Assembly (NCBI RefSeq): GCF_014645495.1
Contig: NZ_BMLV01000001.1
Span: 748,410-812,409 of the forward strand
Origin: Cloacibacterium rupense
Lineage (GTDB): Bacteria; Bacteroidota; Bacteroidia; Flavobacteriales; Weeksellaceae
Reading direction: 5' to 3'
DNA length: 64,000 bases
The translations under genes were made by a program, and so were the position numbers. Below are positions 12,806-26,643 of the stretch, one piece after another. How positions within the stretch are numbered: position 1 is the first letter of the stretch; each line of letters begins with the position of its first letter. The notes beneath the pieces were generated by a model. It did not search any database and had not been told where the DNA came from. It saw nothing but the letters and a program-made list of their open reading frames with translations.

Positions 12806-14338
12806 TCAAAAAAAACTTAATATCGTTTTTACAATACTGAAAATACTAAGAGCCATTACTAAAACCCCGACCGCAATAAACATATATTTTGGCGCTACTT
12901 TAGAAGTAAGTCTTGCAGAAAATGGTGCGGTTATGATTCCTCCAATCAATAAACCTAATACGATATTCCAATGATGGATGCCTATAGTGTAGATAAAAGC
13001 TACAGCACTTGCTACAGTAAGAATAAATTTTGCTACGGTAGAGCTTCCAACTACATATCTTGGGGTATAACCATTTTTGATTAATGTACCTGTAACAAAA
13101 GGTCCCCAACCGCCTCCAGTAAAGGAATCTATAAAGCCACCAAAAACACCTAGCACTTTGAAGTTTGCTTTCTTTTTAGGGTATTTTACATTGGCTTTCT
13201 TTAACACTGAATTTTGAAAAATCTTGAATCCTAAATATAAGGTATAAAGTGATATTATCGGTTTTACATATTTTGCATAGCCTTCACCCAAAAAAGAAAT
13301 AGCTGCAACTCCTATTACCACACCTAAAATAGCAGGAATTACGAGTTTTTTCACCATATTTTTATTGACATTTTTCAGTTTGTAATGACTGATGCTTCCT
13401 GCCAAAGAAGTAAAAGATTCTGCAGAATGTATACTAGCCGTTACAATGTGAGGCGCTATTCCAAAACTCAATAATATCGTAGTACAGATTACTCCATAGC
13501 CCATCCCGACAGAACCGGCCACTACTTCTGCCACAAAACCTGTAAACATCATCCAAAGAAAACGGTTGTTATCTTTATTCAGCAATAATGAAATATCTGA
13601 CCAAAGATTAAAATATTTTATCATAAAAAAGCCTGAAACCAAAACCAACAAACCACCCATAATCAAGAGTGTATTGTTTACTATTCTTCTGGCCCTTTTT
13701 ACCACCAAAATAGACTTTTCGAACTGAGAAATATCCGAAATATATTTATCAAAATCCTCTGGATGAGTTGAAAGATTTTCAGTGACTTTATTTAGAATTT
13801 TTACTTTAGTTTTAAAATCTCCAGACAATTGATTTCTCAATTTATTCATATTTAAAATCAAGTAATCTAATTGGTCTGGCAAAGAATGCTCTAACGTTTC
13901 TTTTAATCTTTTGGCAATGGTTGGTGATTTTCCATTCGTAGAAATGGCAATTTTTAGATTTCCTTTGTTAACAATAGAGCCTAAATAAAAATCGCACAAA
14001 TCTGGTTGGTCTGCGGCATTTACCAAAATTTTTCTCGCATTCGCCAATTTTTTAATTTCAGCATTTACTTCTTTGATATTGGTTGCTGCAATTACAAAAT
14101 CTACACCCTCTAAATCTGTTTCATCAAAGAGTTTCTCCTTCAAAGTAACATTAGAATTTTGGACAGATATATCTCTAACTTCATCTAAAAATTCTGGAGA
14201 AACTATGGTAATTTTCACCTCAGGATTTTGATTGAGGAGTGTCTCTGTTTTTTCTAGACCTATATTCCCACCTCCTACAATCAAGAAGTGGGCTTGTTCT
14301 GTTTTTAGAAATATAGGGAATAATGTATTGCTGCTCAT
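12806..14338 (-). CDS. Fusion: Met8/SirC-like precorrin-2 dehydrogenase + TauE/SafE permease
   Basis: A 510-aa two-part protein. Residues 1-about 215 match the siroheme-synthase N-terminal unit (Met8/SirC/CysG-N): the NAD loop VGGGNIGLEK at 21-30, NAADQPDLCDF near 107-117, and ISTNGKSPTIAKRLKE near 132-147. This domain oxidises precorrin-2 to sirohydrochlorin and may insert iron. Residues about 220-510 form a TauE/SafE (TSUP) membrane permease with several helices and the repeat motif GFVAEVVAGSVGMGYG. TSUP proteins move sulfite, sulfonates or related anions. Placed last in the sulfate-reduction locus, 4 nt after the TonB receptor gene, the fusion joins siroheme supply for CysI to sulfur-anion transport at the inner membrane. 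Each half looks intact, and no frameshift signs were seen. Confidence 0.88.
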   Translation of the reverse strand: MSSNTLFPIFLKTEQAHFLIVGGGNIGLEKTETLLNQNPEVKITIVSPEFLDEVRDISVQNSNVTLKEKLFDETDLEGVDFVIAATNIKEVNAEIKKLANARKILVNAADQPDLCDFYLGSIVNKGNLKIAISTNGKSPTIAKRLKETLEHSLPDQLDYLILNMNKLRNQLSGDFKTKVKILNKVTENLSTHPEDFDKYISDISQFEKSILVVKRARRIVNNTLLIMGGLLVLVSGFFMIKYFNLWSDISLLLNKDNNRFLWMMFTGFVAEVVAGSVGMGYGVICTTILLSFGIAPHIVTASIHSAESFTSLAGSISHYKLKNVNKNMVKKLVIPAILGVVIGVAAISFLGEGYAKYVKPIISLYTLYLGFKIFQNSVLKKANVKYPKKKANFKVLGVFGGFIDSFTGGGWGPFVTGTLIKNGYTPRYVVGSSTVAKFILTVASAVAFIYTIGIHHWNIVLGLLIGGIITAPFSARLTSKVAPKYMFIAVGVLVMALSIFSIVKTILSFF

Positions 14339-14342
14339 TTAA

Positions 14343-16922
14343 TTATTGTTTCAAAGTATATTTAAGAGTTACACCAAAAGTTGCTGGATCACCAATTACA
14401 CCAGCGTAATGTCCTGCACTACCTGGAGCGGCTAATAATTGTTCGTAATAATCTTTATTAAGTAAATTTCTTGCCCAAAGATTGATAGACAAACCATTAG
14501 AAGCTCTGAAACCAACTCTACTATTTAGCAAATAATATCCAGAAATATTCAAATACTGTGAAGGAGAAGGGCTAGAGGAAAAATTGGATCTAAAAAAGAC
14601 ATCAGCTCCTACAAAATAGCTACCTTCAAAACCTAGAAAATGCCCATCAAAAGAATCTTCAGCCCCGAAAGAGCCAGACCATTTAGAAATACCTGGTAGT
14701 CTACCACCTGAAACATCTTTGAAAGCAAGTGAACCTCCTACTTCTTCTAAAGGTACTGGTGCATTTGTAAATTTAACGTATTTGCCTTCTGTATAGGCTA
14801 AAGCAGCATTAAATACAAAATTCTGAATTCTTAAATTACCATCTATTTCCACACCTTTTACATTTACTTTCTCGGCATTTGCCAGATAACCTCTGTTTAC
14901 ACCTGGCTCTGGAGTTTGCACTTGTGTTTGATAATCATTAATATCATCATTAAAAAATACCACATTAAAAACAGAGTTGGCAGTAGGTTTGGTTTTCACC
15001 CCAATTTCAAAATGTCTTACAGATTCTGGTTTTACTTTTGCCAAATCAATTAAAACTACTCCATTTGCTGTAGGCAAACCACCAATGTTTATCCCTACAG
15101 GTTTATAGCTTAGAGAATAGGTAGCAAAGGTATTGAAATTATTGTTGATATTGTACTGCAAAGTAAGCTGTCCAGAGAAATTTCCTTCTTTGGCATCTGT
15201 ATCAAAAGCTTGGTTAGTGTACACTTTATTTTTAAGCGCAATTAAAGCTGGATCAGTAGTTTGCAAACCTCCGTACGTTTGTCTTTTGTAATTCGCAATC
15301 TTTTTATCATAATTGTATCTAACTCCTGGTAAAATGTGCAACTTTTCTGTTAAAGCCCAATCTAATTGACCAAAAACTGCTAAACTGGTACTTTGAATTC
15401 TATTGGTGGTTCTAATTCCAAAATTGTCAAACAAACCTGGTGTTTTCCAAAGTGAACTGGTAGAATCTTGTGCAAAACGCCACTGTGCTGAGCCAGCTTC
15501 TTCTGTCTGTACAGGGTCTGAATTAAGGTCTTGCCACAACCCAAAAACACCTATAACACCGTGAAGTTTTTCGGTAAAATCACCAGAGTATCTTATTTCT
15601 TGAGACCATTGTTCATGTTTAGAATTTCCAGATGAAATGGTAAATACAGGTATGCCTAAATAATCCCTATCATTTAGTGGATTCCATCTCCAATATCTGA
15701 ATGCCGAAGTAGAAGTAAGTGTACCTTTCCCAATTTTGAAATCTGCATTAATGGAAACGCCTCCTAATTGATTGTCTGCTTTAGATGGTGTATCTAAATC
15801 TACTTTTCTTTCGAAGGCGCTGCTATATGGAATTTGGTAATTCAAATCTTTAATGATATTATAAAACTGTCTATATGCTGCTCTTTTTGTAGTAACTACA
15901 CCTGCAATTGGCCATCCGTAACCATCAGGTTTTTGGTCTGTGATATCAGCATTTAATGTCAATTTTATTTCATCTGTTGGTTTGTAAAGCAATTGAGCTC
16001 TTACACCTATGTTATTGATATCATTAATATTTTGTTGAGTATGTACATTATACAAAAGACCATTTCTTTGACTTCCAGAGAAAGAAATTCTAGCTGCCAA
16101 TTTTTTGGAAATAGGACCAGACAAAAAACCTCTAGCTTGAAGAAAACCATAATTACCACCAGTGATTTCAAAACTTGCACTTGGTCGGAAAGTAGCGTCT
16201 TTGGTAGTAATGTTAAAAGCACCAGCAGTAGTATTTTTACCAAAAAGTGTTCCTTGCGGACCTCTAAGAACCTCTATTCTTTCGGTGTCTATAAAATCTA
16301 ATGCCGTAGCTGCAGGTCTAGCGTAATAAACTCCATCTACATAAAAACCAACCCCAGGGTCTATCCCATCATTGGTAAGACCAAACGTAGAGCCTAACCC
16401 CCTGATATTAAGCGTAGTATTTCTAGCATTAGAAGCGTACAATTGAACTGTAGGCACTAATTCTTTTAATCTATTTACCGTAAAAGAACCTGTCTCGTCT
16501 ATTCTTTTAGAAGTAAGAACTGTAATTGGGATAGGAATTTTCTGAATTTCTTCGCTTCTTCTTCTAGAAGTTACCAAAACGGCTTCAATATGTTTTTCAA
16601 TTAAATTTAATTTTATAGTAATGCTTGGTTGGTACTCGTCTAAAATGACTTCAGATTTTTGATACCCTTTTTTATTTACTTCTAAAACCACAGGAAAATC
16701 GTTGATATTCTGTAATTTAAAAGTTCCTTCTGCATCAGATTTTACAGAATATTCTGTTCCTTTTATTTTGATTGTCGCATCTGTAAGTGGTGTATTGTCA
16801 TAATCTACCACATATCCTTTGATTAATTTTTTCTCGGTAATTTGGATACTGTCTTTTTCTTGAGAATATGCAAAATTTTGGTTTAAAAATAATAATCCTA
16901 AAATATAAATTGTTTTTTTCAT
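14343..16922 (-). CDS. TonB-dependent outer-membrane receptor of the sulfur locus
   Basis: Outer-membrane receptor of 859 aa. A signal peptide ends near NFAYSQ. A carboxypeptidase-regulatory-like beta-sandwich (about 30-110, GYVDYDNTPL-type start) is followed by a plug domain (about 120-240) with IRGLGSTFGLTNDGID and VLRGPQGTLFGKNTTAG. The barrel runs to the C-terminus, ending with an aromatic-rich strand (VTLKYTLKQ). Its family resembles siderophore-type receptors rather than SusC. Position between the Rrf2 regulator and the siroheme/TSUP fusion (4-nt gap) suggests uptake of a sulfur source such as a sulfonate or sulfate ester, or of iron needed for the Fe-S and siroheme enzymes. The ligand is inference only. 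A short Cys-containing ORF lies in its 322-nt leader. Confidence 0.88.
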   Translation of the reverse strand: MKKTIYILGLLFLNQNFAYSQEKDSIQITEKKLIKGYVVDYDNTPLTDATIKIKGTEYSVKSDAEGTFKLQNINDFPVVLEVNKKGYQKSEVILDEYQPSITIKLNLIEKHIEAVLVTSRRRSEEIQKIPIPITVLTSKRIDETGSFTVNRLKELVPTVQLYASNARNTTLNIRGLGSTFGLTNDGIDPGVGFYVDGVYYARPAATALDFIDTERIEVLRGPQGTLFGKNTTAGAFNITTKDATFRPSASFEITGGNYGFLQARGFLSGPISKKLAARISFSGSQRNGLLYNVHTQQNINDINNIGVRAQLLYKPTDEIKLTLNADITDQKPDGYGWPIAGVVTTKRAAYRQFYNIIKDLNYQIPYSSAFERKVDLDTPSKADNQLGGVSINADFKIGKGTLTSTSAFRYWRWNPLNDRDYLGIPVFTISSGNSKHEQWSQEIRYSGDFTEKLHGVIGVFGLWQDLNSDPVQTEEAGSAQWRFAQDSTSSLWKTPGLFDNFGIRTTNRIQSTSLAVFGQLDWALTEKLHILPGVRYNYDKKIANYKRQTYGGLQTTDPALIALKNKVYTNQAFDTDAKEGNFSGQLTLQYNINNNFNTFATYSLSYKPVGINIGGLPTANGVVLIDLAKVKPESVRHFEIGVKTKPTANSVFNVVFFNDDINDYQTQVQTPEPGVNRGYLANAEKVNVKGVEIDGNLRIQNFVFNAALAYTEGKYVKFTNAPVPLEEVGGSLAFKDVSGGRLPGISKWSGSFGAEDSFDGHFLGFEGSYFVGADVFFRSNFSSSPSPSQYLNISGYYLLNSRVGFRASNGLSINLWARNLLNKDYYEQLLAAPGSAGHYAGVIGDPATFGVTLKYTLKQ

Positions 16923-16964
16923 TGTTAATTATTCTAAAAAAGTTTAAAGTAAATAGTAAGAAAA

Positions 16965-16993
16965 TAGAATTCTATACATGGTTAGAAATTCTA
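16965..16993 (-). terminator. Weak terminator-like hairpin in the receptor gene leader
   Basis: On the minus strand TAGAATTTCTA pairs with TAGAATTCTA (one bulged base) around ACCATGTA and is followed by TTTTCTTA. AT-rich, so weaker than the hairpins at 26247 and 26472. It lies between the short Cys ORF and the receptor ATG. Confidence 0.4.
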
Positions 16994-17003
16994 ATAAAAC
17001 TTG

Positions 17004-17075
17004 TTAAAATAATTGGCAACAACTGCTTTTAGAATTATTTTTATAATAATTCTTTTTCAAAAATTTAGTCTTCAT
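17004..17075 (-). CDS. Candidate leader peptide with Cys-Cys (23 aa)
   Basis: A short frame beginning MKTKFLKKNYYKNN and ending SKSSCCQLF then TAA, placed in the leader of the TonB receptor gene 82 nt before its ATG. It has adjacent Cys codons (17016-17021), like the two leader peptides of the cysH operon. A 9-bp hairpin (17031-17039 with 17045-17053) lies inside the frame, and a weak terminator follows. Unlike the cysH leaders, the only strong competitor strand for the terminator lies before the Cys codons, so simple stalling-based antitermination does not fit well. It may be chance. Confidence 0.35.
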   Translation of the reverse strand: MKTKFLKKNYYKNNSKSSCCQLF

Positions 17076-17149
17076 ATTATTCAATTCTTAGGTTTAATCA
17101 AAATTTAATTAAAATGAAATAATCATTATCCAATCAAAATTTGAAGTAG

Positions 17150-17183
17150 CAAATATAATTAATATTATATAATTCCTACCAAA
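17150..17183 (-). promoter_or_regulatory. Putative promoter of the TonB receptor transcript
   Basis: Minus-strand TATATTTG at 17150-17157 matches TAnnTTTG. TTTG at 17180-17183 could be the -33 element, at a slightly long 22-nt spacing. The -33 region overlaps TACCAAATTAGTAT (plus strand 17177-17190), similar to a motif at the Rrf2 gene and the cysH operon promoters. Confidence 0.5.
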
Positions 17184-17244
17184 TTAGTATGAATTTTTAT
17201 TTAATATATTATAATTACATTTAAATAAAGGAAAAAACATTAAT

Positions 17245-17655
17245 TTATTTGGAGAGTTCTGCTATAGTTTTGTTAAGAATAGGCAATGTAGCATCTCTTA
17301 CTTCGGTAAATAATAACTTAATACTACAGGTTTCTTCATCTATGCAATCTTCACATTTCTGATAATAATTAACCGAAACACAATTCATCATAGATATAGG
17401 ACCATCTATAAACCTTAGAATTTCGGCAACAGAAATTTCGTGAGGTGCTTTTAAAAAAGAATAGCCACCCTCTGCTCCTCTTTCGCTTTTAAGAATCTTA
17501 TTCTGTTTAAGTTCTCTAAGAATGGTCTCTAAAAACTTATAAGGAATTTTTTCTTTCGCTGAAATCAATTTCGCTGAAACAGGTTTATTCGCTTCGACAT
17601 TTTTCGAAATAAAAATCAAAGCTTTGATGGCATATTTTACTTTTTTTGAAAGCAT
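17245..17655 (-). CDS. Rrf2-family transcriptional regulator, probable sulfur/cysteine regulator
   Basis: Winged-helix Rrf2 regulator of 136 aa. The ATG at 17655 gives the family-typical opening MLSKKVKYAIKALIF. An upstream TTG at 17676 overlaps the predicted -7 box and is unlikely. The HTH covers about residues 25-60 with the wing motif SERGAEGGYSFLK. Cysteines near the C-terminus (NCVSVNYYQKCEDC and ETCS) resemble the Fe-S ligands of IscR/NsrR types but in a different spacing. Rrf2 members such as CymR control cysteine metabolism in Firmicutes. Placed inside the sulfate-reduction locus between cysI and the TonB receptor gene, this is the obvious candidate local regulator. Effector and sites are unproven. 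Confidence 0.85.
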   Translation of the reverse strand: MLSKKVKYAIKALIFISKNVEANKPVSAKLISAKEKIPYKFLETILRELKQNKILKSERGAEGGYSFLKAPHEISVAEILRFIDGPISMMNCVSVNYYQKCEDCIDEETCSIKLLFTEVRDATLPILNKTIAELSK

Positions 17656-17657
17656 AA

Positions 17658-17705
17658 TTTTGGTAATACTTTTCAAAAATACAAAATATCCTAAATCTTT
17701 AACAA
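17658..17705 (-). promoter_or_regulatory. Promoter of the Rrf2 gene with possible operator
   Basis: Minus-strand TATTTTTG (17674-17681) is a -7 box with TTG at 17703-17705 (21-nt spacing). AGTATTACCAAAAT (minus, about 17657-17670) sits at the predicted transcription start, where a repressor would block. TTACCAAAATTAT here differs by one base from TTACCAAAAGTAT at the cysH operon promoter. Confidence 0.5.
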
Positions 17706-17719
17706 AACTTCAACTCTTT

Positions 17720-19363
17720 TTAATTAAAATACTTTCGATAAGCAAAATCCCCGAAATGTTCTCCTGCTTGTTTTTCTTTTACATATTGCCCAAACAAATG
17801 ATCCACTTCATCTAAAATCTCTTGCTCTGAAAGTTTTTCTTTATACAATTTATTGAGTCTTAATCCGTATCTATCTCCACCCAACATAAAATTATACTGT
17901 TCTGCTGCCGTTCCTATAAAACCTAATTCTGCCACGTAAGGTCTACCGCAACCATTAGGGCAACCCGTCATTCTGATAGAAATTTCATGTTCCGAAAGTC
18001 CGTGTTTTTCTAAAATAGGTTCTATTTTTGTTACCAATTCTGGCAAATATCTTTGAGCTTCAGCTAGAGCAAGCGGACAAGTTGGCAATGCTACACATGC
18101 CATAGAACTTTTCCTCATCGGCGAAACATTCTTTTCAATTTCAAATTTTTCTAATAATTCTTCAATTTTTTTCTTATCAATTTCAGAAACATTACCAATA
18201 ATCAAATTCTGATTTCCTGTGAAGATGAAATTACTTAAATTAAGATTCGCCACTTCTAATAAGAAAGCTTTTTGATAAGGTTTTACCACGCCGTGTTCTA
18301 CAAAAAGGGTGTAATACCATTTTCCATCTGCGCTTTGTTCCCAACCGTAACGGTCATTTCTTTCGGTAAATTGATAGGGTTTTGCAGGTTCTAGTTTGAA
18401 ACCAATTCGTTTTTCTAATTCTTCTTTGAAACCTTCTACCGTCAATCTTTCGATGGTGTATTTTAATCTAGACAATTTTCTGTCTGCTCTGTTCCCGAAA
18501 TCTCTTTGAATGGTTAAAACTTCGTAAACTGCTTTCAATGTTTTTTCTTCGGTATCTAAAAACCCGAGTACATTTCCCAAACGTGGAAAAGTAGCAGCAT
18601 TACCGTGAGTAGTGCCCAAACCACCACCAACAACTAAGTTGAAGCCTTTCAATTCATCATTTTCGATAATGGCAATCAGTCCTAAATCGTTGGTGAACAA
18701 ATCCACATCATTGCTTGGTGGAATTGCTATTGCAATTTTGAACTTTCTCGGTAAATAACGGTCTTCGTACAAAGGATCTGCTTCTGCGGAACGTTCGTAG
18801 ATTTTTTCTCCGTCTATAAAAACCTCGTAATAAGCTTTGGTTTTTGGCAAAAGTAATTTCGAAATTTTATCTGCATACTCGTGAACCTGATGATGAATGG
18901 GCGACAATTGCGGATGCGAACTGGCAATCACATTTCTATTCACATCACCACAAGCTGCAATGGAATCTAGTTTTGCGGTATTAAACGCTTGAATCGTAGG
19001 TCTAATTTGATGTTTCAAAATCCCGTGAAGTTGCACCGTTTGTCTGGTGGTAATTTTAAGAGTTCCTGTACCAAATTCTTCTGAAACTTGGTGTAATGCT
19101 TGCCATTGTTCCGCCGAAATTGCTCCACCCGGAATTCTGAGACGAATCATAAAAGAATACAATTTGTCTAATTTTTTAGCGGCTCTTTCTGCTCTTTTAT
19201 CACGGTCGTCTTGCACATACATTCCGTGGAATTTTACCAATGCTTCATCGTCTGGACGAACATTTCCGGTGTGATTATCAAGTTCTATACTTTCTTTCAA
19301 CGTACCTCTCAGTCCGTCGCTTTTCATTTTTATGTGTTCTATTGGAGATAATTTATCGCTCAT
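17720..19363 (-). CDS. cysI: Assimilatory sulfite reductase, siroheme/Fe-S subunit
   Basis: Siroheme and [4Fe-4S] subunit (547 aa) that reduces sulfite to sulfide by six electrons taken from the CysJ flavoprotein. N-terminal ferredoxin-like half-domain includes MIRLRIPGGAISAEQW near residue 70 and TTRQTVQLHGI near 103. The cluster/siroheme cysteines are in VALPTCPLALAEAQR and TGCPNGCGRPYVAE (C-X5-C then C-X3-C pattern) near residues 435-480. The gene follows cysJ after a 142-nt repeat-rich spacer and precedes the Rrf2 gene by about 64 nt on the same strand. Nitrite reductases share the fold, but the cysJ, cysH and cysDN neighbours decide for sulfite. Confidence 0.93.
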   Translation of the reverse strand: MSDKLSPIEHIKMKSDGLRGTLKESIELDNHTGNVRPDDEALVKFHGMYVQDDRDKRAERAAKKLDKLYSFMIRLRIPGGAISAEQWQALHQVSEEFGTGTLKITTRQTVQLHGILKHQIRPTIQAFNTAKLDSIAACGDVNRNVIASSHPQLSPIHHQVHEYADKISKLLLPKTKAYYEVFIDGEKIYERSAEADPLYEDRYLPRKFKIAIAIPPSNDVDLFTNDLGLIAIIENDELKGFNLVVGGGLGTTHGNAATFPRLGNVLGFLDTEEKTLKAVYEVLTIQRDFGNRADRKLSRLKYTIERLTVEGFKEELEKRIGFKLEPAKPYQFTERNDRYGWEQSADGKWYYTLFVEHGVVKPYQKAFLLEVANLNLSNFIFTGNQNLIIGNVSEIDKKKIEELLEKFEIEKNVSPMRKSSMACVALPTCPLALAEAQRYLPELVTKIEPILEKHGLSEHEISIRMTGCPNGCGRPYVAELGFIGTAAEQYNFMLGGDRYGLRLNKLYKEKLSEQEILDEVDHLFGQYVKEKQAGEHFGDFAYRKYFN

Positions 19364-19505
19364 AATTTAAAGTTTGAGGTGGTTTGAAATTGTTTGGTAT
19401 TGTTTGAAATGGTTTGACTTTGTTTGATGTTGTTTGAATGAGTTTGATTTACACCTTTCTGCTTCCATCTTCCATCTTCCAGCATCCATCATCTAACATC
19501 CATCA
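19364..19505. repeat. Spacer of imperfect short repeats between cysJ and cysI
   Basis: Two low-complexity blocks. At about 19370-19451 the unit GTTTGA recurs roughly nine times at about 11-nt steps (e.g. GGTTTGAAATT, GTTTGAAATG). At about 19460-19504 CATCTTCCA/CATCCATCAT-like units recur. No reading frame or clear hairpin was seen. Similar short intergenic repeats occur in many Bacteroidetes genomes, as I recall. Confidence 0.7.
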
Positions 19506-21206
19506 TTAGTAAACATCTTTCAGAAATCTGCCTTGGTTTTCTAATTCTTCTACTACTGTTTTTGCTTGTTCTACAGAAATATTTCGTTGGGTAGAAATTA
19601 CTTCTACAATCGTGTTTTCCACATCTTTGCTCATAGGTTCTTTTTGTCCGCACAAGTAGATGTAAGCTCCATTTTCAATCCAAGAATTAAATTCTCTTGC
19701 ATTTTCTTTAATTCTATCTTGTACATAGATTTTTTTTTCTTGGTCACGTGAAAAAGCAGTACTCAATTTGGTTAAAACCCCTGTACTCAACCATTCCTGA
19801 ATTTCGGTTTGGTAATAAAAATCAAGCGTAAAGTGCTGTTCACCAAAGAACAACCAATTTTTACCTTCTGCTCCGTTGGCATCTCTTCCTGCTAAAAAGC
19901 TTCTGAAAGGCGCAATTCCCGTTCCTGGACCAATTAAAATAATGTCTTTGTCATCTTCTGGCAATCTGAAATTTTCGTTTTTATGAATGTAAAATTCAAA
20001 TTCTTGATTTAGAGGAAAATCTGCAAAATATTGTGAAGCAAAACCAGTTTTTTTCTCGTCATTTGCATTAAATTTATTAAGGTTTACCGTTAAATGAACT
20101 TCGCCATCGTGTGCTTCAGAAGAAGATGAAATAGAATACAATCTAGGCGCAACAGGCAACAAAATTTCTAGAATTTTTTGGAATGAATTTGATTCTAATT
20201 TTGGAGTTTTAATGCTTTTTAAAACATCTATCAAATCTGCTTTTTCCCAAATGTTTTCAAATGGTAAAACTTCTGATATTAAATCTAAAGAACGCTTGCT
20301 TAATCCTTTAATATTTCTAAGTTCTAACCAATCAAAAACTGTTTTTGTTTCATTTTTAATGGCAATTTCATCATTACTTTTTGCATCGAAATAATTGATA
20401 ATGAAATCAATATCTTCTTTAGAATTTTTAGGAATAATTCCGAGCGCATCACCAGGTTGGTACGCAATTTCATCATCTGAAATAATTTCTAAATGATAGG
20501 TTTCTTTGTTAGAACCTGTATCATTCAGCACAATTTTATGTTTGATTATGCCTTTGTAATTCTTTTTATGAGGAATAATCTGAACAGAATGAGCAACCTT
20601 AGTTTCACTTTTAACTCCAGAAAACAAATTCTGTAAATCTTTTTGCCAAGCTTCTACCAAAGGATTGAAATCTACATCTGCTTTTACCAAAGGCAATAAT
20701 CTTTTAGCTCCTTTTTCTTCCAAAACCTCATCTAGAAGTCTTCCTGCTTCGCAGAAAAGAGGGTAAGAACTATCTCCCAAACCAAAAACAGCGTAAGAAA
20801 GTTGATTAAGATTTACATTAGAAGATTTCAGTTTTTCATAAAAATCTTTGGCATTCAGAGGAAGTTCGCCTTCGCCTTGGGTGCTGATGATGAAAAGAAT
20901 TAAAGTTTCTTTTTCTAGTTTTTTTACATCAAACTGAAAAATATCTACAGATTTTGCATTGATTTTTTCCTTTTTGAAATTAGCCTGAAGTTTTGAAGCT
21001 ACTTTTTTGGCATTTCCTGTTTCCGTTCCATAAACGATGAGTGGTTTTACATTGATTAAAGGAACAGAAGTATTTTCTATTTTAAGATTTCCTTCGCTAG
21101 ATTTTGCAATGTAACCCGCCAAAAATCCTTTAGAATAGATTAATTCTTCGTAAGTGGCGTTAGAAACCAATTGTTGCAATAGGTTTTGTTTAGTATCAGA
21201 TAGCAT
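19506..21206 (-). CDS. cysJ: Sulfite reductase flavoprotein subunit
   Basis: NADPH-dependent diflavin reductase (566 aa) that feeds electrons to CysI. The start ATG at 21206 (MLSDTKQNLLQQL) overlaps the end of cobA by 11 nt. A longer frame to 21272 would overlap cobA further and adds no recognisable sequence. A flavodoxin domain (about 50-190) has VYGTETGNAKKVA and STQGEGELPLNAKDFYEKL. The FAD domain has PRLYSISSSSEAH, and the NADPH domain has IGPGTGIAPFRSFLAGR and YLCGQKEPMSKDVE. All cofactor motifs look intact. Translational coupling with cobA ties siroheme methyltransfer to sulfite reduction. Confidence 0.92.
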   Translation of the reverse strand: MLSDTKQNLLQQLVSNATYEELIYSKGFLAGYIAKSSEGNLKIENTSVPLINVKPLIVYGTETGNAKKVASKLQANFKKEKINAKSVDIFQFDVKKLEKETLILFIISTQGEGELPLNAKDFYEKLKSSNVNLNQLSYAVFGLGDSSYPLFCEAGRLLDEVLEEKGAKRLLPLVKADVDFNPLVEAWQKDLQNLFSGVKSETKVAHSVQIIPHKKNYKGIIKHKIVLNDTGSNKETYHLEIISDDEIAYQPGDALGIIPKNSKEDIDFIINYFDAKSNDEIAIKNETKTVFDWLELRNIKGLSKRSLDLISEVLPFENIWEKADLIDVLKSIKTPKLESNSFQKILEILLPVAPRLYSISSSSEAHDGEVHLTVNLNKFNANDEKKTGFASQYFADFPLNQEFEFYIHKNENFRLPEDDKDIILIGPGTGIAPFRSFLAGRDANGAEGKNWLFFGEQHFTLDFYYQTEIQEWLSTGVLTKLSTAFSRDQEKKIYVQDRIKENAREFNSWIENGAYIYLCGQKEPMSKDVENTIVEVISTQRNISVEQAKTVVEELENQGRFLKDVY

Positions 21207-22017
21207 TTTGATAGTTTGTTTTGTGATTATCGAAATAAGAGTTTCCAGATTTTTTTTCCTCGAACCAAGCAAATTGATGATGCAAGTTCACCACATTTCC
21301 GATGATGATAAGCGTAGGAACGTATTCAAATTCTGGTAGAGATTGAGATTTAATTTCCTCGAAAGAGAAAACCTGCGTTTTTTGTTCTGGAGTGGTCGCT
21401 TGTTGAACCACCGCAATCGATTTTGAGCCTTCAATCCCAAATTCAATCAATTTTTGAGTGATATTTTCTAGTTTTTGTCCGCTCATATAAAACACCAAGG
21501 TATCTTCTGTAGTTGCCCAATCTTGCCACTGATGAAGGGTTACAAATTTGAAATCATACAGCGTAAGAAACCTCACTCCTCTAGAATATTCTCTGGCAGT
21601 AAGCGGAATACCTGTGTAAGCCGCAGCGCCAAAAGCAGCAGAAACTCCGGGAATAATTTCGTAGGAAATTTGGTGTTCTTTTAAAATTTGAAGTTCATCC
21701 AAAATATTTGAAAAAAGGCTGGCATCGCCACCTTTTAGGCGAAGCACCAATTTCCCTTGTTTGGCAAAATGCACCATCAAATTGTTGATGTCTTTTTGGG
21801 GAGTCCAAATTCCTTTAGAACATTGCTTGCCAACGTACACAATTTCTGCTTTTTCGGAAGCGTATTCTTCTATCAACTCTGGCGAAACCAATCTGTCGGT
21901 AAGAATGACTTCCGCTTTTTGAAGGTACTTTAAAGCCTTCAAACTGATAAGTTCTGGATCGCCTGGTCCTGCACCTGCCAAAACCACTTTTCCTGTATTT
22001 TGAATTAAACTTTTCAT
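21196..22017 (-). CDS. cobA: Uroporphyrinogen-III C-methyltransferase
   Basis: S-adenosylmethionine-dependent methylase (273 aa) that converts uroporphyrinogen III to precorrin-2, the first step to siroheme. SAM-binding GAGPGDPELISLKALKYL opens the protein (residues 15-33). LRLKGGDASLFSN near 93 and EIIPGVSAAFGAAAYTGIPLT near 120 are family blocks. It lacks the CysG N-terminal domain, which is instead supplied by the fusion protein at 12806-14338. It overlaps cysJ by 11 nt. Other SUMT relatives (cobalamin pathway) are less likely given the sulfate-reduction neighbours. Confidence 0.93.
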   Translation of the reverse strand: MKSLIQNTGKVVLAGAGPGDPELISLKALKYLQKAEVILTDRLVSPELIEEYASEKAEIVYVGKQCSKGIWTPQKDINNLMVHFAKQGKLVLRLKGGDASLFSNILDELQILKEHQISYEIIPGVSAAFGAAAYTGIPLTAREYSRGVRFLTLYDFKFVTLHQWQDWATTEDTLVFYMSGQKLENITQKLIEFGIEGSKSIAVVQQATTPEQKTQVFSFEEIKSQSLPEFEYVPTLIIIGNVVNLHHQFAWFEEKKSGNSYFDNHKTNYQNAI

Positions 22018-22147
22018 AAATTTTGTATAAATTTTTGCATAAAATCTCCTCCGCCTTATCGAAAACGATATGGTAAAAACTTGATTATCTGTAAGTTAAA
22101 GATTAATTAAAAAGTCTGCTAACTCTATTTTTTAGTCTAATCTTTTC

Positions 22148-22245
22148 GCAGCCCGACCTGAGTGGAGCTCTCCCGAAAAAATATTTTTTTTAAATTTTAA
22201 AAAATATTTTTTCGGGAAGCGGGAACGGAGGGCGGAATAGCTGCC
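22148..22245. repeat. Long palindromic intergenic element, possibly REP-like
   Basis: Between cysK and cobA. The core is a perfect 18-bp inverted repeat, CCCGAAAAAATATTTTTT (22172-22189) with its complement at 22199-22216, and a 9-nt loop. Conserved-looking flanks are GCAGCCCGACCTGAGTGGAG on the left and GGGAACGGAGGGCGG on the right, and outer GCAGC/GCTGC can also pair. Its GC-rich flanks stand out from the AT-rich spacer. I recall similar hairpins dispersed in flavobacterial genomes. Only this copy is present in the window. Confidence 0.7.
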
Positions 22246-22284
22246 CAAAAAATCATAAATTACTAGCTAACAGACTTTTAAGAA

Positions 22285-23193
22285 TTAGAACAATCCTTCG
22301 ATGGAAAGATAACGTTCTCCTGTATCGTAATTGAAAGTTAGAATCTGAGCGTCATCTGGTAAAGTCTCTGCTTTTTTGGCAACCGCTGCTAAAGAAGCAC
22401 CTGTGGAAATCCCTACTAAAATCCCTTCTTTTTTGGCAATTTCTCTGGCATATTCGAAAGCCTCGTCTTTGCTCACTTGAATAACTTCGTCTATTAAATC
22501 TGAGCGATAAACATCTGGTACAAAACCTGCTCCAATCCCTTGAATTGGATGCGGTCCGGGCGCACCTCCGCTTAAAACAGGAGATAATTCTGGTTCTACG
22601 GCAATCACTTTAAGATTTGGGAATTTTTCTTTCAAAACAGCAGCAACCCCTGTAATGTGGCCACCAGTCCCAACTCCTGTGATAATATAATCTAATCCGT
22701 CTGGAAAATCTGCCAAAATCTCTTGAGCGGTAGTTCTTTTGTGAACTTCTACATTAGCTTGATTTGCAAATTGTGATGGCGACCAAGCATTTGGTGTATT
22801 GGCAACCAATTCTGCGGCTCTTTCTATAGCGCCTTTCATTCCTTTTTCACGTGGGGTAAGGTCGAATTCTGCACCATAAATTTCCATTAATTTTCTACGC
22901 TCTACACTCATAGATTCTGGCATTACCAAAATTACTTTGTAACCTTTAACCGCAGCTACTAAAGCCAAGCCGATACCTGTGTTACCCGAAGTTGGTTCTA
23001 TGATTACACTATCTGAGTTTAAAAGTCCTTTAGCTTCTGCATCTTCTATCATTGCCAATGCAATACGGTCTTTGATGCTGTTACCTGGATTGGTTCTTTC
23101 TAATTTGATGAAAACATTTTTATTGCCGTATAATTTGTTGATTTTAACGACTGGAGTGTTTCCGATGGTTTCTAAAATGTTACTTGCTTTCAT
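22285..23193 (-). CDS. cysK: Cysteine synthase (O-acetylserine sulfhydrylase)
   Basis: PLP enzyme (302 aa) that combines O-acetylserine and sulfide to cysteine, the last step of the pathway encoded here. The PLP lysine is in [17 protein letters not shown]-type sequence near residue 40 (K in SIKDR). The substrate loop [12 protein letters not shown] is near 66, and the phosphate-binding [10 protein letters not shown] near 174. The lack of a C-terminal CBS extension excludes cystathionine beta-synthase. It follows cysN by 109 nt. A TACCAAAA motif lies in that gap (23210-23230). A separate promoter is not clear. CysK versus CysM type was not resolved. Confidence 0.92.
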
Positions 23194-23302
23194 ATTTTTT
23201 ATTTTTCTATTTTTTGGTACTAAAAAATCTTTACATAAAGCTTAGCTCTATGCTATTATAAATTGTAATAATGTATCTAATTCTAAGTTTTTCTTAAATT
23301 GT

Positions 23303-24535
23303 TTAAAGGAACATTAATGCTCCTACGGTGTTGAAGCTGGTTTCGTCTATTAAAATGGCGCTTCCTGATTTTGGATTTTTCTCGAAAGTGTCATAAAATA
23401 ATGGTTGACTGGTTTTTAATGTAACTTGTGCAATATCATTGAGTTGAACTGCATCTCCATCCGTAAATTGCCATTGATTAACGTTCCATTTTCTATTAAT
23501 TTGTTGCACTTTTACTCTCACATTTTTGAATCTGTGTTGTAATAAATACGTTTTACCAACTTGTAACGAATTGTTATCTAACCAAGAAATCCAAGTGTTG
23601 ATTTGGTTGTCTTCTTTTGGCAATTGATTGCTGAGAACTACAGTGTCTCCACGGCTGATGTCTATATCATTTTCGAAATGTAACACTACATTGTCACCTG
23701 CTATTACTTCCGAAACATCTTTTAAATCTTTTTCTATTTTCACTAAAGTTGTTTCTATTTTAGCAGGCAAAATGGTTACTTTGTCTCCAACTTTGTAGCT
23801 TCCGCTCAAGATTTGCCCTGCATAACCTCTGTAATCGTGGTTGTCTTCATCTTTTGGCCTGATTACCCATTGCACTTGGAATCTTGCTTCTAAATCTTCC
23901 GTTCCGTCTAATTCTACAGTTTCTAAAGTTTGAAGAATAGATTTCCCGTTGTACCAAGGTGTATTTTCAGAAGTGGTAACTACGTTATCTCCTACCAATG
24001 CACTTACCGGAATGTAGATAATTTCGTTGTAATTCAATTCAGATTTTATGGCTTCGAAATCATTTTTTATTTGGTTAAAAACTTCTTCGGAATAGTTTAA
24101 TAAATCTATTTTATTAATGGCGATTATTGCTTTTTTAATTCCCATTAAAGAGCCTACACTTGCGTGTCTTTTGGTTTGGTCTGTAATTCCGTTTCGGGCA
24201 TCAACTAGAACAATGATTAAATCTGAGTTGGAAGCACCAGTAATCATATTTCTAGTGTATTGTTCGTGACCAGGTGCATCTGCAATGATAAATTTTCTTT
24301 TAGAAGTAGAGAAATATTTGTACGCAACATCTATTGTAATTCCTTGTTCACGCTCTGCACGAAGGCCGTCTGTAATTAAAGATAAATCTATATCTACACC
24401 TTCTTGCTTGGTTTGTTTTTGTAAAACACCCAATTGGTCTGTATGTATGCTGTCAGAATCATAGAGAAGTCTTCCGATTAAGGTACTTTTGCCATCATCT
24501 ACGTTTCCTGCGGTTATAAATCTTAATGTATTCAT
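23303..24535 (-). CDS. cysN: Sulfate adenylyltransferase subunit 1 (GTPase)
   Basis: GTP-hydrolysing regulatory subunit (410 aa) of ATP sulfurylase, which with CysD makes APS from sulfate and ATP. EF-Tu-like motifs: GNVDDGKSTLIGRLL (residues 10-24), the DAPGHEQY switch region near 90, and NKID near 145. Beta-barrel domains follow. There is no C-terminal APS kinase (CysC) domain, unlike the bifunctional NodQ/CysNC form. That agrees with the APS-type CysH encoded just upstream. A 73-nt gap with short GAGTTTCG repeats separates it from cysD. Confidence 0.93.
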   Translation of the reverse strand: MNTLRFITAGNVDDGKSTLIGRLLYDSDSIHTDQLGVLQKQTKQEGVDIDLSLITDGLRAEREQGITIDVAYKYFSTSKRKFIIADAPGHEQYTRNMITGASNSDLIIVLVDARNGITDQTKRHASVGSLMGIKKAIIAINKIDLLNYSEEVFNQIKNDFEAIKSELNYNEIIYIPVSALVGDNVVTTSENTPWYNGKSILQTLETVELDGTEDLEARFQVQWVIRPKDEDNHDYRGYAGQILSGSYKVGDKVTILPAKIETTLVKIEKDLKDVSEVIAGDNVVLHFENDIDISRGDTVVLSNQLPKEDNQINTWISWLDNNSLQVGKTYLLQHRFKNVRVKVQQINRKWNVNQWQFTDGDAVQLNDIAQVTLKTSQPLFYDTFEKNPKSGSAILIDETSFNTVGALMFL

Positions 24536-24537
24536 TT

Positions 24538-24580
24538 TTTTATGAGTTTCGAGTTTCGTGATACGAGTTTCGACTTAATT
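24538..24580. repeat. Short GAGTTTCG repeats between cysD and cysN
   Basis: GAGTTTCGAGTTTCG, then CGAGTTTCG again after TGATA, in a 73-nt spacer. Low complexity. No terminator or start signal was seen in it. Confidence 0.5.
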
Positions 24581-24608
24581 ATTAATTTAAAATTTTGAAT
24601 ATTTGATA

Positions 24609-25514
24609 TTAAAAGTACCCTTGTTTTTTACGGTCTTCCATTGCAGCTTCCGAAAGTTGATCATCTAATCTTGTTTGTCCTCTTTCGCTAATTCTGGTTT
24701 GGATAATATCTTCAATAATGTCATCAATTGTAGAAGCTTCAGAAGGCACTGCTGCGGTACAAGTCATATCTCCAACGGTTCTGTATCTTACTTTTTCAAT
24801 CACCACTTCGTCACCTTCTTGAGGTTGAATAAACGCCGAAGTTGCCACTAATTTATCTTGAAACTTAATACATTCTCTATTGTGAGAGAAATACAAATTC
24901 GGCAATTCTATATTGTATTTTTTGATGTAATTCCAGATGTCTAACTCCGTCCAATTGCTAATTGGGAAGACTCTTACATTATGACCTTTTTGTACTTTTC
25001 CGTTAAGGATATTCCACAGTTCGGGTCTTTGAAGTTTTGGGTCCCAAGCTCCGAAATCGTCTCTTACAGAGAAAATTCTTTCTTTGGCTCTGGCTTTTTC
25101 TTCGTCTCTTCTTGCGCCGCCAATACAAGCGTCAAATTCATTTTCTTCGATGGTGTCTAAAAGAGTGTAAGTTTGAAGAGAATTTCTAGAAGGGAATCTA
25201 CCGCCAGTTTCTTTTAAATTATATTTTTTGATGCTGTCTTCTACATAACCCACTACCAATTTTTCTCCAATTTTTTCTACCAATTCATCTCTGAATTCTA
25301 AAGCTTCAGGGAAATTATGACCTGTGTCTATATGCACCAAAGGAAAAGGAAATTTACCTGGGCGAAACGCCTTCAACGCTAAATGTACCAACACGATGGA
25401 ATCTTTACCTCCCGAGAAAAGCAAAGCTGGCTTTTCGAACTGCGCCGCTGTTTCTCTTAAAATATAAATTGCTTCGTTTTCTAATTGCTCTAAATAATCT
25501 ACTGTATTGCTCAT
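24609..25514 (-). CDS. cysD: Sulfate adenylyltransferase subunit 2
   Basis: Catalytic subunit (301 aa) of ATP sulfurylase, of the PP-loop ATP pyrophosphatase fold. The ATG at 25514 gives MSNTVDYLEQLENEAIYIL, the usual flavobacterial opening. An ATG at 25532 abuts the cysH stop and would add six residues (MQKKIK), so it is a weaker choice. The PP-loop is LLFSGGKDSIV near residue 35. ARRDEEKARAKERIFS near 140 is a CysD signature. It is co-transcribed with cysH (18-nt gap) and cysN. Confidence 0.93.
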   Translation of the reverse strand: MSNTVDYLEQLENEAIYILRETAAQFEKPALLFSGGKDSIVLVHLALKAFRPGKFPFPLVHIDTGHNFPEALEFRDELVEKIGEKLVVGYVEDSIKKYNLKETGGRFPSRNSLQTYTLLDTIEENEFDACIGGARRDEEKARAKERIFSVRDDFGAWDPKLQRPELWNILNGKVQKGHNVRVFPISNWTELDIWNYIKKYNIELPNLYFSHNRECIKFQDKLVATSAFIQPQEGDEVVIEKVRYRTVGDMTCTAAVPSEASTIDDIIEDIIQTRISERGQTRLDDQLSEAAMEDRKKQGYF

Positions 25515-25532
25515 TTTAATTTTTTTCTGCAT

Positions 25533-26225
25533 TTATTGATGTAAACCACATTCTTTTTTAGATTGATCTTCCCACCACCATCTTCCAGCTCGGAAATCTT
25601 CGCCTTCTTTTACCGCTCTAGTGCAAGGTGCACAACCAATACTTATGAAACCTTTGTGATGAAGCGTATTGTAAGGAACTCCTTTTTGTTGTAAGTATGC
25701 TACCACGTCATCGGTTGACCAGTTCATCAAAGGATTGAATTTGTATAACTGATGCGCTTCATCCCATTCTACCAATTTCATTGTTTGTCTATTAGGCGAT
25801 TGCTCTGCTCTAAGTCCTGTAATCCATACATTTGCACCTTGTAAAGCTCTATTTAATGGTTGAACTTTTCTGATATTACAACATTCTTTTCTAAGTTCTA
25901 CACTGTTATAAAAACCATTAATTCCGTTGTCTGAAACATATTTTTCTATGTTTGAAGCTTCTGGATAAAAAGGTTTTATTTTGTTTCCAAATTTTAGATT
26001 GGTTTTATCCCAAACTTCATAAGTTTCTGGGAAAAGTCTGCCAGTATCTAGTGTAAAAACCTCTATATTTTCTAATTGATTACTAAAAATTTCGTTGGTA
26101 ATCACTTGATCTTCTATTCCGAAACTGGTAGAAAAAACAATTTTCCCTTTTAATTGTTCATTCAAGATTTTTAAATTTTCCTGAACTGAATTGTTCTCAT
26201 TGAGTAATTTTAATACTTCTTCCAT
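25533..26225 (-). CDS. cysH: Adenylylsulfate (APS) reductase, CysH family
   Basis: Reduces activated sulfate to sulfite in the cytoplasm using thioredoxin (230 aa). The paired-cysteine motifs for a [4Fe-4S] cluster are present, ECCNIRKVQPL near residue 130 and GCAPCTRAVKEGED near 195. The catalytic cysteine is at the C-terminus in KKECGLH. The CC...CxxC pattern marks the APS-reducing type rather than the PAPS-only enterobacterial type, which fits the absence of cysC. The PP-loop region reads VFSTSFGIEDQV near residue 30. First gene of the operon, it begins 13 nt after an attenuator terminator, so its expression is set by the leader at 26238-26643. Confidence 0.93.
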   Translation of the reverse strand: MEEVLKLLNENNSVQENLKILNEQLKGKIVFSTSFGIEDQVITNEIFSNQLENIEVFTLDTGRLFPETYEVWDKTNLKFGNKIKPFYPEASNIEKYVSDNGINGFYNSVELRKECCNIRKVQPLNRALQGANVWITGLRAEQSPNRQTMKLVEWDEAHQLYKFNPLMNWSTDDVVAYLQQKGVPYNTLHHKGFISIGCAPCTRAVKEGEDFRAGRWWWEDQSKKECGLHQ

Positions 26226-26237
26226 ACTATTTTTTCA

Positions 26238-26268
26238 AAAAAAATGACCTCTTGAAACCAAGAAGCCA
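26238..26268 (-). terminator. Attenuator terminator B, directly before cysH
   Basis: In the transcript GGCUUCUUG (26268-26260) pairs with CAAGAGGUC (26255-26247) over 9 positions including two G-U pairs, with a GUUU loop. It is followed by A and eight U (26238-26245), 13 nt before the cysH ATG. No gene ends here, so it acts as an attenuator. Confidence 0.8.
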
Positions 26269-26298
26269 ATATTTATTTATAATCACAATAATTCTATA

Positions 26299-26412
26299 CT
26301 ATAGACCATAAGAAATAGGAGCTTCCAAAGAAACTTTACAACAACAAACCATCATACACATTGCTGTGAAGCTGTATTTTGGGTTATTAAAAGTAAAATC
26401 TTTTGTATTCAT
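26299..26412 (-). CDS. Leader peptide B, Cys-rich (37 aa), second attenuator module
   Basis: Short ORF from ATG 26412 to TAG 26299. It opens MNTKDFTFNNPKYSF and contains TAMCMMVCCCKVS, with Cys at positions 19, 23, 24 and 25. It has no signal peptide or known domain. Four RNA strands can be drawn: AGCUUC (26373-26368, codons 14-15) can pair with GAAGCU (26325-26320, codons 30-31), and GGAAGCUCCUAUUU (26326-26313) can pair at 12 of 14 positions with AAAUAUUGGCUUCU (26275-26262), which includes the 5' arm of terminator B. The second strand starts 11 nt after the last Cys codon. Expected role: ribosome stalling at Cys codons when charged tRNA-Cys is low allows read-through into cysH. Ends 73 nt before cysH. 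Confidence 0.8.
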   Translation of the reverse strand: MNTKDFTFNNPKYSFTAMCMMVCCCKVSLEAPISYGL

Positions 26413-26464
26413 TTCGTTTCTAATTTCTATTTTCTTAATTTCTGTGTAAAATTACTAATTTTTA

Positions 26465-26505
26465 AAACAAAAAAGACTCCTTAATCATAAAATTAAGGAG
26501 TCTTT
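26465..26505 (-). terminator. Attenuator terminator A
   Basis: A perfect 14-bp stem (26472-26485 with 26492-26505) and 6-nt loop, giving AAAGACUCCUUAAU with its complement, then UUUUUUGUUUU in the minus-strand transcript. It lies between leader ORF A and leader ORF B and ends no long gene. Confidence 0.88.
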
Positions 26506-26540
26506 CTTGAAAATATTTTTTGTTAAATCTATATCAATAT

Positions 26541-26553
26541 AAGAAATTCTCCT
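26541..26553 (-). promoter_or_regulatory. Antiterminator strand of module A
   Basis: AGGAGAAUUUCUU begins 12 nt after the last Cys codon of leader A. It can pair with AAGAAAGACUCCU (26508-26496) at 11 of 13 positions (a 2x2 A-A/A-G mismatch in the middle), which destroys terminator A. CCUCU (26565-26561) can instead pair with AGAGG (26555-26551) when no ribosome is stalled. Confidence 0.75.
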
Positions 26554-26604
26554 CTAGTTAAGAGGACAACAGCACATTGCGATATTTGATATAATTTGTT
26601 TCAT
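26554..26604 (-). CDS. Leader peptide A, MKQIISNIAMCCCPLN (16 aa), first attenuator module
   Basis: Short ORF from ATG 26604 to TAG 26554, first in the cysH-operon transcript. Codons 11-13 are TGC TGT TGT. The predicted -7 box ends at 26614, so the mRNA would begin only about 3-7 nt before the ATG, making the ORF close to leaderless. The Cys codons are followed by a small hairpin, an antiterminator strand and a strong terminator in the order of a trp-type attenuator. Peptide function is expected to be regulatory only, through stalling when Cys-tRNA is scarce. Found only by reading short frames, as it is far below usual gene-calling limits. Confidence 0.82.
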   Translation of the reverse strand: MKQIISNIAMCCCPLN

Positions 26605-26613
26605 TTTGTGTTG

Positions 26614-26643
26614 CAAATATATAATTAATTTTAAACAAAACAA
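26614..26643 (-). promoter_or_regulatory. Promoter of the cysH operon
   Basis: Minus-strand TTG (26641-26643), exactly 19 nt, then TATATTTG (26614-26621), a good Bacteroidetes -33/-7 pair. Upstream on the plus strand ATTACCAAAAGTAT (26681-26694) resembles the motif at the Rrf2 gene start. Confidence 0.72.

Follow-up and report, generated by a model that had tools for sequence, protein, structure and literature searches.

The gene cysH and the sulfate-assimilation operon that follows it in Cloacibacterium rupense are preceded by a leader that, as judged from sequence comparison and folding, probably comprises two ribosome-mediated transcription attenuators arranged in series on one transcript (we put the probability of this reading at about 0.88). 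Such a leader would most likely let the cell make cysteine only when cysteine, and perhaps also methionine, runs short. Within the window, i.e. the whole stretch of 64,000 nucleotides that was analysed, the elements follow each other on the minus strand in the order (5' to 3') promoter, ORF1, terminator T1, ORF2, terminator T2 and cysH (Table 1), each short ORF and its terminator forming one module. The leader displays the features known from attenuators: translatable ORFs containing codons for the product of the pathway, a terminator ahead of the structural genes and, according to the comparative and in silico data, an antiterminator strand that would be exposed upon stalling and that pairs with the 5' arm of the terminator.

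We infer that the leader would operate as follows. In each module a ribosome would translate the short ORF with its cluster of Cys (and Met) codons, and when charged tRNA-Cys is low it would stall at the Cys codons. The stalled ribosome would in module 1 cover the 5' arm of a protector hairpin, and in both modules stalling would expose a strand that starts some 10 nt past the final Cys codon; this strand would capture the 5' arm of the terminator upon its synthesis and let RNA polymerase read on. With plentiful Cys the ribosome would reach the stop codon and either mask this strand or cede it to the protector hairpin; with the strand unavailable, the terminator would form.

Table 1. Features of the cysH leader and operon in the window, and of two further leaders discussed in the text
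Feature	Position	Strand	Details
Promoter, Bacteroidetes-type	26614..26643	minus	TTG 26643-26641, 19-nt spacer, TATATTTG 26621-26614
Leader ORF1 MKQIISNIAMCCCPLN	26554..26604	minus	16 codons, MCCC; Cys codons 26574-26566
Module-1 protector hairpin (1:2)	26550..26566	minus	UCCUCU-UAACU-AGAGGA; fold of 26580-26540
Module-1 antiterminator strand AGAGGAGAAUUUCUUA	26540..26555	minus	partner T1 5' arm; -9.4 kcal/mol
Intrinsic terminator T1	26472..26505	minus	14-bp stem AAAGACTCCTTAAT/ATTAAGGAGTCTTT; scan and folding, -20.7 kcal/mol
Leader ORF2 MNTKDFTFNNPKYSFTAMCMMVCCCKVSLEAPISYGL	26299..26412	minus	37 codons, MCMMVCCC; Cys codons 26358-26356, 26346-26338
Module-2 antiterminator strand UGGAAGCUC	26319..26327	minus	partner T2 5' arm UGGCUUCUU; -8.9 kcal/mol
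Intrinsic terminator T2	26245..26268	minus	10-bp stem; scans and folding, -12.5 kcal/mol
cysH, first operon gene	25533..26225	minus	NF002537 phosphoadenylyl-sulfate reductase, 272 bits (cut-off 154); TIGR02055, 251 bits (cut-off 235)
Operon remainder	12806..25532	minus	common strand and gene order
Rrf2-family regulator, CymR-like	17245-17676	minus	below CymR cut-off; inside the cys operon
His-run leader MNNINLIHHHHHLI	L223:17688-17732	plus	same genome; five His, then terminator, before hisG
Nine-Cys leader ORF TCCCTMTMCCCNCCC	L053:5195-5297	plus	family f13

All elements named in the original prediction were recovered at their places on the minus strand of the window, with slight corrections to two distances. 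T2 had been put 13 nt from the cysH ATG (26225); it does lie just upstream, the actual distances being 19 nt from the end of the stem and 11 nt from the end of the U tract. The antiterminator strands had been said to begin 11–12 nt past the last Cys codon, which in both modules was measured as 10–11 nt. The T1 stem is followed by a U-rich tract (26471-26463) and T2 by eight U (26244-26237). The 5' end of the transcript is predicted to lie at about 26607, and ORF1 is probably almost leaderless because the promoter element is so near to it. Folding of module 1 gave a textbook set of protector, antiterminator and terminator, the protector hairpin covering the last codons and the stop codon of ORF1, while in module 2 folding indicates that a protector hairpin is possible. 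A simple terminator scan of the window returned two sites against 0.1 expected, namely T2 and the module-1 protector hairpin; T1 is absent from that list and was seen by a separate scan and by folding. That T1 serves as terminator of the upstream gene was rejected, since that gene is divergent and the promoter is located between it and T1.

The genes downstream of the leader make up a cysteine pathway: cysH is followed by cysD, cysN, cysK, a uroporphyrinogen-III methyltransferase gene, a cysJ-like gene and cysI, and the operon further includes genes for an Rrf2-family regulator, which may add control, a TonB-type receptor and a CysG-N/permease-like fusion; siroheme functions are among those encoded. 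As judged by their common strand and order, these genes are presumably co-transcribed with cysH. Cys-dense short ORFs (three Cys in five codons, outside long ORFs) are rare in this genome: only four were found in 1.66 Mb (1.60 Mb fetched plus the window, about half of the genome), and the two of these that are followed by a terminator are exactly ORF1 and ORF2.

The leader is conserved well beyond the window. The comparative set, drawn from across Flavobacteriales, contains 25 leaders (21 of them tandem) with 46 modules in total, and the tandem layout is kept in about twenty related species; these modules are not independent of each other, as 25 of the 26 leader-bearing CysH rows belong to a single clade (support 97) in a FastTree phylogeny of 167 CysH proteins with many weak branches. 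The three-in-five filter overlooked the CMMMMCCM second modules of Flavobacterium and was therefore relaxed for this set, and the second module of L169 was entered by hand. In the sister species G089 both modules are present and ORF2 is conserved; three Cys codons differ from those of the window, all by synonymous TGT/TGC changes, and ORF1 retains its CCC run despite two of these changes. Across the leaders the Cys codons likewise alternate between TGT and TGC while remaining Cys at most positions. Within genus g16, G071 has a tandem leader (L010), with a counterpart of the 37-aa ORF2 containing CCC, and G016 a single one. In Flavobacterium, which belongs to another family, the leader precedes one type of CysH gene in 18 of 18 genomes (16 tandem and two single) and the other type in none of the 11 sampled; named species bearing it are Flavobacterium urocaniciphilum, F. 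limnosediminis and F. humi. In family f13, G222 carries two modules ahead of a short membrane-protein-like gene and then cysH, nine Cys codons being present in the second module, and in family f15 a single module of G233 precedes a cysteine synthase operon. Thus, the CCC codons, terminators and co-varying antiterminators that the original prediction had proposed to look for in relatives were all found (G089, g16, about 18 Flavobacterium genomes and f13).

The two modules appear to share one promoter. In 24 of the 25 leaders the -7 element TAnnTTTG precedes module 1 (1.7 expected), and in none of the 21 tandem leaders does it occur between the modules, which leaves a second promoter at that position unsupported. 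Most likely, therefore, both terminators lie on one transcript, and cysH would then be read only if both T1 and T2 have been passed. Read-through would then result from multiplying two responses and hence be steeper than with one, so that the series form would sharpen the response.

In nearly all modules the antiterminators begin 6–17 nt past the last Cys codon, which is the expected front edge of a stalled ribosome. Their pairing exceeds that of shuffled sequences (mean z 2.9), and they pair more strongly with their own terminator arm than with unrelated ones, i.e. arms without a shared 6-mer (-11.8 versus -8.0 kcal/mol; 35 distinct arms, p 1.6e-9). In the tandem leaders the first antiterminator favours T1 in 21/21 cases and the second favours T2 in 19/21. 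Different leaders use different matched pairs (GAGGAG/CUCCUC, AAGAGGC/GCCUCUU, GCAGAGG/CCUCUGC, AAGGAGC/GCUCCUU and GGAAGCU/GGCUUCU), which in effect amounts to covariation. For the window by itself, the pairings stand out only marginally from shuffles (p 0.05 for module 1 and 0.09 for module 2), and it is the comparative evidence that makes these antiterminators convincing.

The ribosome states were modelled by folding only the ribosome-free RNA, up to the emergence of the terminator 5' arm, with the ribosome placed either at the first Cys codon ('stalled') or at the stop codon, the latter state assuming that RNA behind the ribosome is unable to pair. The mean probability of the antiterminator was 0.74 in the stalled state, 0.09 at the stop codon and 0.40 when the intervening strand was shuffled, and it was above the shuffled mean in 46/46 modules (p 1e-14). 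The corresponding values for the window were 0.60 stalled versus 0.13 at stop for module 1, and 0.74 versus 0.10 for module 2. In nearly all modules the completed terminator is the favoured structure at equilibrium, even if the ribosome is stalled, and antitermination must therefore be kinetic. In several ORFs of module 2 the antiterminator strand lies 15–25 nt ahead of the stop codon, and a ribosome at that codon may therefore mask the strand incompletely.

The original prediction took the Cys codons as the sensor. Cys is indeed dense in all 46 modules, but it does not stand alone, as Met clusters with it: of the residues no more than three positions from a Cys, 27% are Met, as opposed to 1% elsewhere (39/178 versus 6/263 in one representative set, p 2e-11). 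Joint sensing of Cys and Met as sulfur amino acids is plausible from this pattern; in branched pathways such as ilv, the leader contains codons for more than one product. Another possibility is that Met near the Cys cluster provides alternative start codons. The same enrichment would fit a leader that mainly senses a general slowdown of translation or some other signal (e.g. methionine or redox), with the Cys codons as only part of the sensor. We consider this unlikely, since it is Cys that is dense in each of the 46 modules, and cysteine is what the downstream genes make.

Loss of the leader in close relatives was held to count against the switch. G089 keeps both modules, but most of the family of the window, e.g. 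Chryseobacterium-like genomes, lacks the leader. In several Chryseobacterium-like relatives a gene for an Rrf2-type regulator is found directly upstream of cysH in its place, and in five of seven sampled species of the window's own genus (G010, G039, G056, G070 and G080) cysH gave no match. The CysH tree further contains a leaderless group (genus g21 together with L175) nested inside the leader-bearing clade, suggesting one nested loss, and G222, outside the main clade, may represent a separate gain. The palindrome CTCTATAAAAACCATAGAG or close variants of it occur 32–38 nt before cysH in L007, L008 and L012-L017 (genus g21, no Cys leaders), where it is likely a repressor site. These leaderless relatives, with their Rrf2-like gene or palindrome, as well as the Rrf2-family gene within the operon of the window, raise the question of whether the switch is in fact an Rrf2/CymR-type repressor of initiation, with the leader playing a secondary part. 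Such a role for the repressor seems quite improbable: none of the leader-bearing members tested has the palindrome, and a terminator close to cysH is seen solely together with a Cys leader, being located within 120 nt of cysH in 21 of 22 leader-bearing loci and in 0/65 cysH loci without a Cys leader. Extending the serial-attenuator reading, one may tentatively picture, at somewhat less than even odds, a widespread sulfur switch of the Flavobacteriales in which two same-signal attenuators read Cys plus Met as a steep AND-type device for the costly sulfate-reduction operon and which was lost in the nested, palindrome-bearing subclade.

It is also conceivable that only one module regulates, the other being a duplicate that has decayed or become redundant, and that the tandem form adds no effect. 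Four of the 25 leaders are single (L009, L162, L164 and L072) and the window antiterminators are individually weak, which agrees with this view. We nevertheless regard such a division as very unlikely, because both modules are present in the remaining 21 leaders with each antiterminator matched to its own terminator, and G089 keeps the Cys codons of both. The sequences of modules 1 and 2 moreover differ, so no recent duplication is involved.

Short poly-Cys ORFs with no terminator after them were also observed about 40–160 nt before cysH in Chitinophagaceae-like and other Bacteroidota genomes (L085, L087, L101, L104, L105, L130, L136, L189, L194, L199 and L213), possibly a separate, translational type of control. 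Although those in the Chitinophagaceae-like genomes would agree with a mode of action through translation (uncovering of the cysH start), as proposed for mycobacteria, rather than through termination, it is hardly credible for the leaders described here, in every module of which a strong intrinsic terminator is matched by its antiterminator. At L140 (minus strand, 2415-2493) a poly-Cys ORF, MPQNNNHSFFFAAVPCCISCCCCMP, lies 97 nt before an O-acetylhomoserine sulfhydrylase-like gene.

The two serial attenuators proposed here resemble several known systems. The enterobacterial trp, his, leu, thr and ilv attenuators likewise combine codons for the pathway product, alternative protector, antiterminator and terminator structures and a terminator before the structural genes; in contrast to these, the cysH leader has Cys/Met codons, controls a sulfate-assimilation operon, contains two same-signal units in series, uses a Bacteroidetes promoter and has no evident Shine-Dalgarno sequence. 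Mycobacteria reportedly have polycysteine leaderless short ORFs that respond to cysteine, as Canestrari is said to have described in 2020. Common to both are Cys runs in a short ORF that is nearly leaderless and precedes cys genes, whereas the cysH leader differs in having two ORFs, each with an intrinsic terminator. Mycobacterial cys leaders contain Cys runs but no terminators were found (Seliverstov 2005, PMC1262725), and a further article describes the poly-Cys mechanism as translational (PMC13236596). The cysH leader thus falls outside the mycobacterial type, which lacks an intrinsic terminator and is presumed to rely on translational or Rho-linked control. Two short ORFs with attenuators in one leader are also found in Salmonella mgtCBR, which its authors call singular and in which the tandem attenuators sense different signals, ATP and proline (PMC3641672); in the cysH leader, by contrast, Cys codons are present in both units, and the arrangement is widespread.

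The original prediction knew of no description of such a leader in Bacteroidetes. This holds in part. A 2021 transcriptome study of Flavobacterium psychrophilum, also of the order Flavobacteriales, reports 'strong clues' that leader peptides mediate attenuation ahead of amino-acid operons generally (PMC9723704), and attenuation in Bacteroidetes is therefore not new; the main text of that study, unlike the present case, contains no cysH, sulfate or cysteine leader and no tandem units. The sulfate-operon target, the tandem form and the Cys/Met codons appear to be new, at least with regard to the main texts of open-access papers: in these, no prior account of the tandem cysH leader was found, and leader-peptide control of sulfate assimilation outside Actinobacteria is not described. 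The leader has no entry in Rfam, as a search against its families (T-box, S-box, amino-acid leaders and Flavo-1) gave no match at gathering score and only chance hairpin matches at E<=1. With this leader, amino-acid attenuation in Bacteroidota would gain a clear example directed at a defined target, sulfate assimilation. As its two serial units would answer the same signal, it offers a direct way to test whether the stacking of attenuators makes a response sharper. Relatives that naturally possess one, two or no modules can serve for comparison as they are, and the leader sequences make it possible to annotate switches of this kind throughout Flavobacterium.

A generic search of the genome of the window for amino-acid leaders produced one good case. 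A Phe-rich ORF with a terminator is doubtful, its downstream gene not evidently belonging to a Phe pathway; the good case is a run of five His codons followed by a terminator before hisG (Table 1), from which it appears that attenuation-type leaders are used elsewhere in the same genome.
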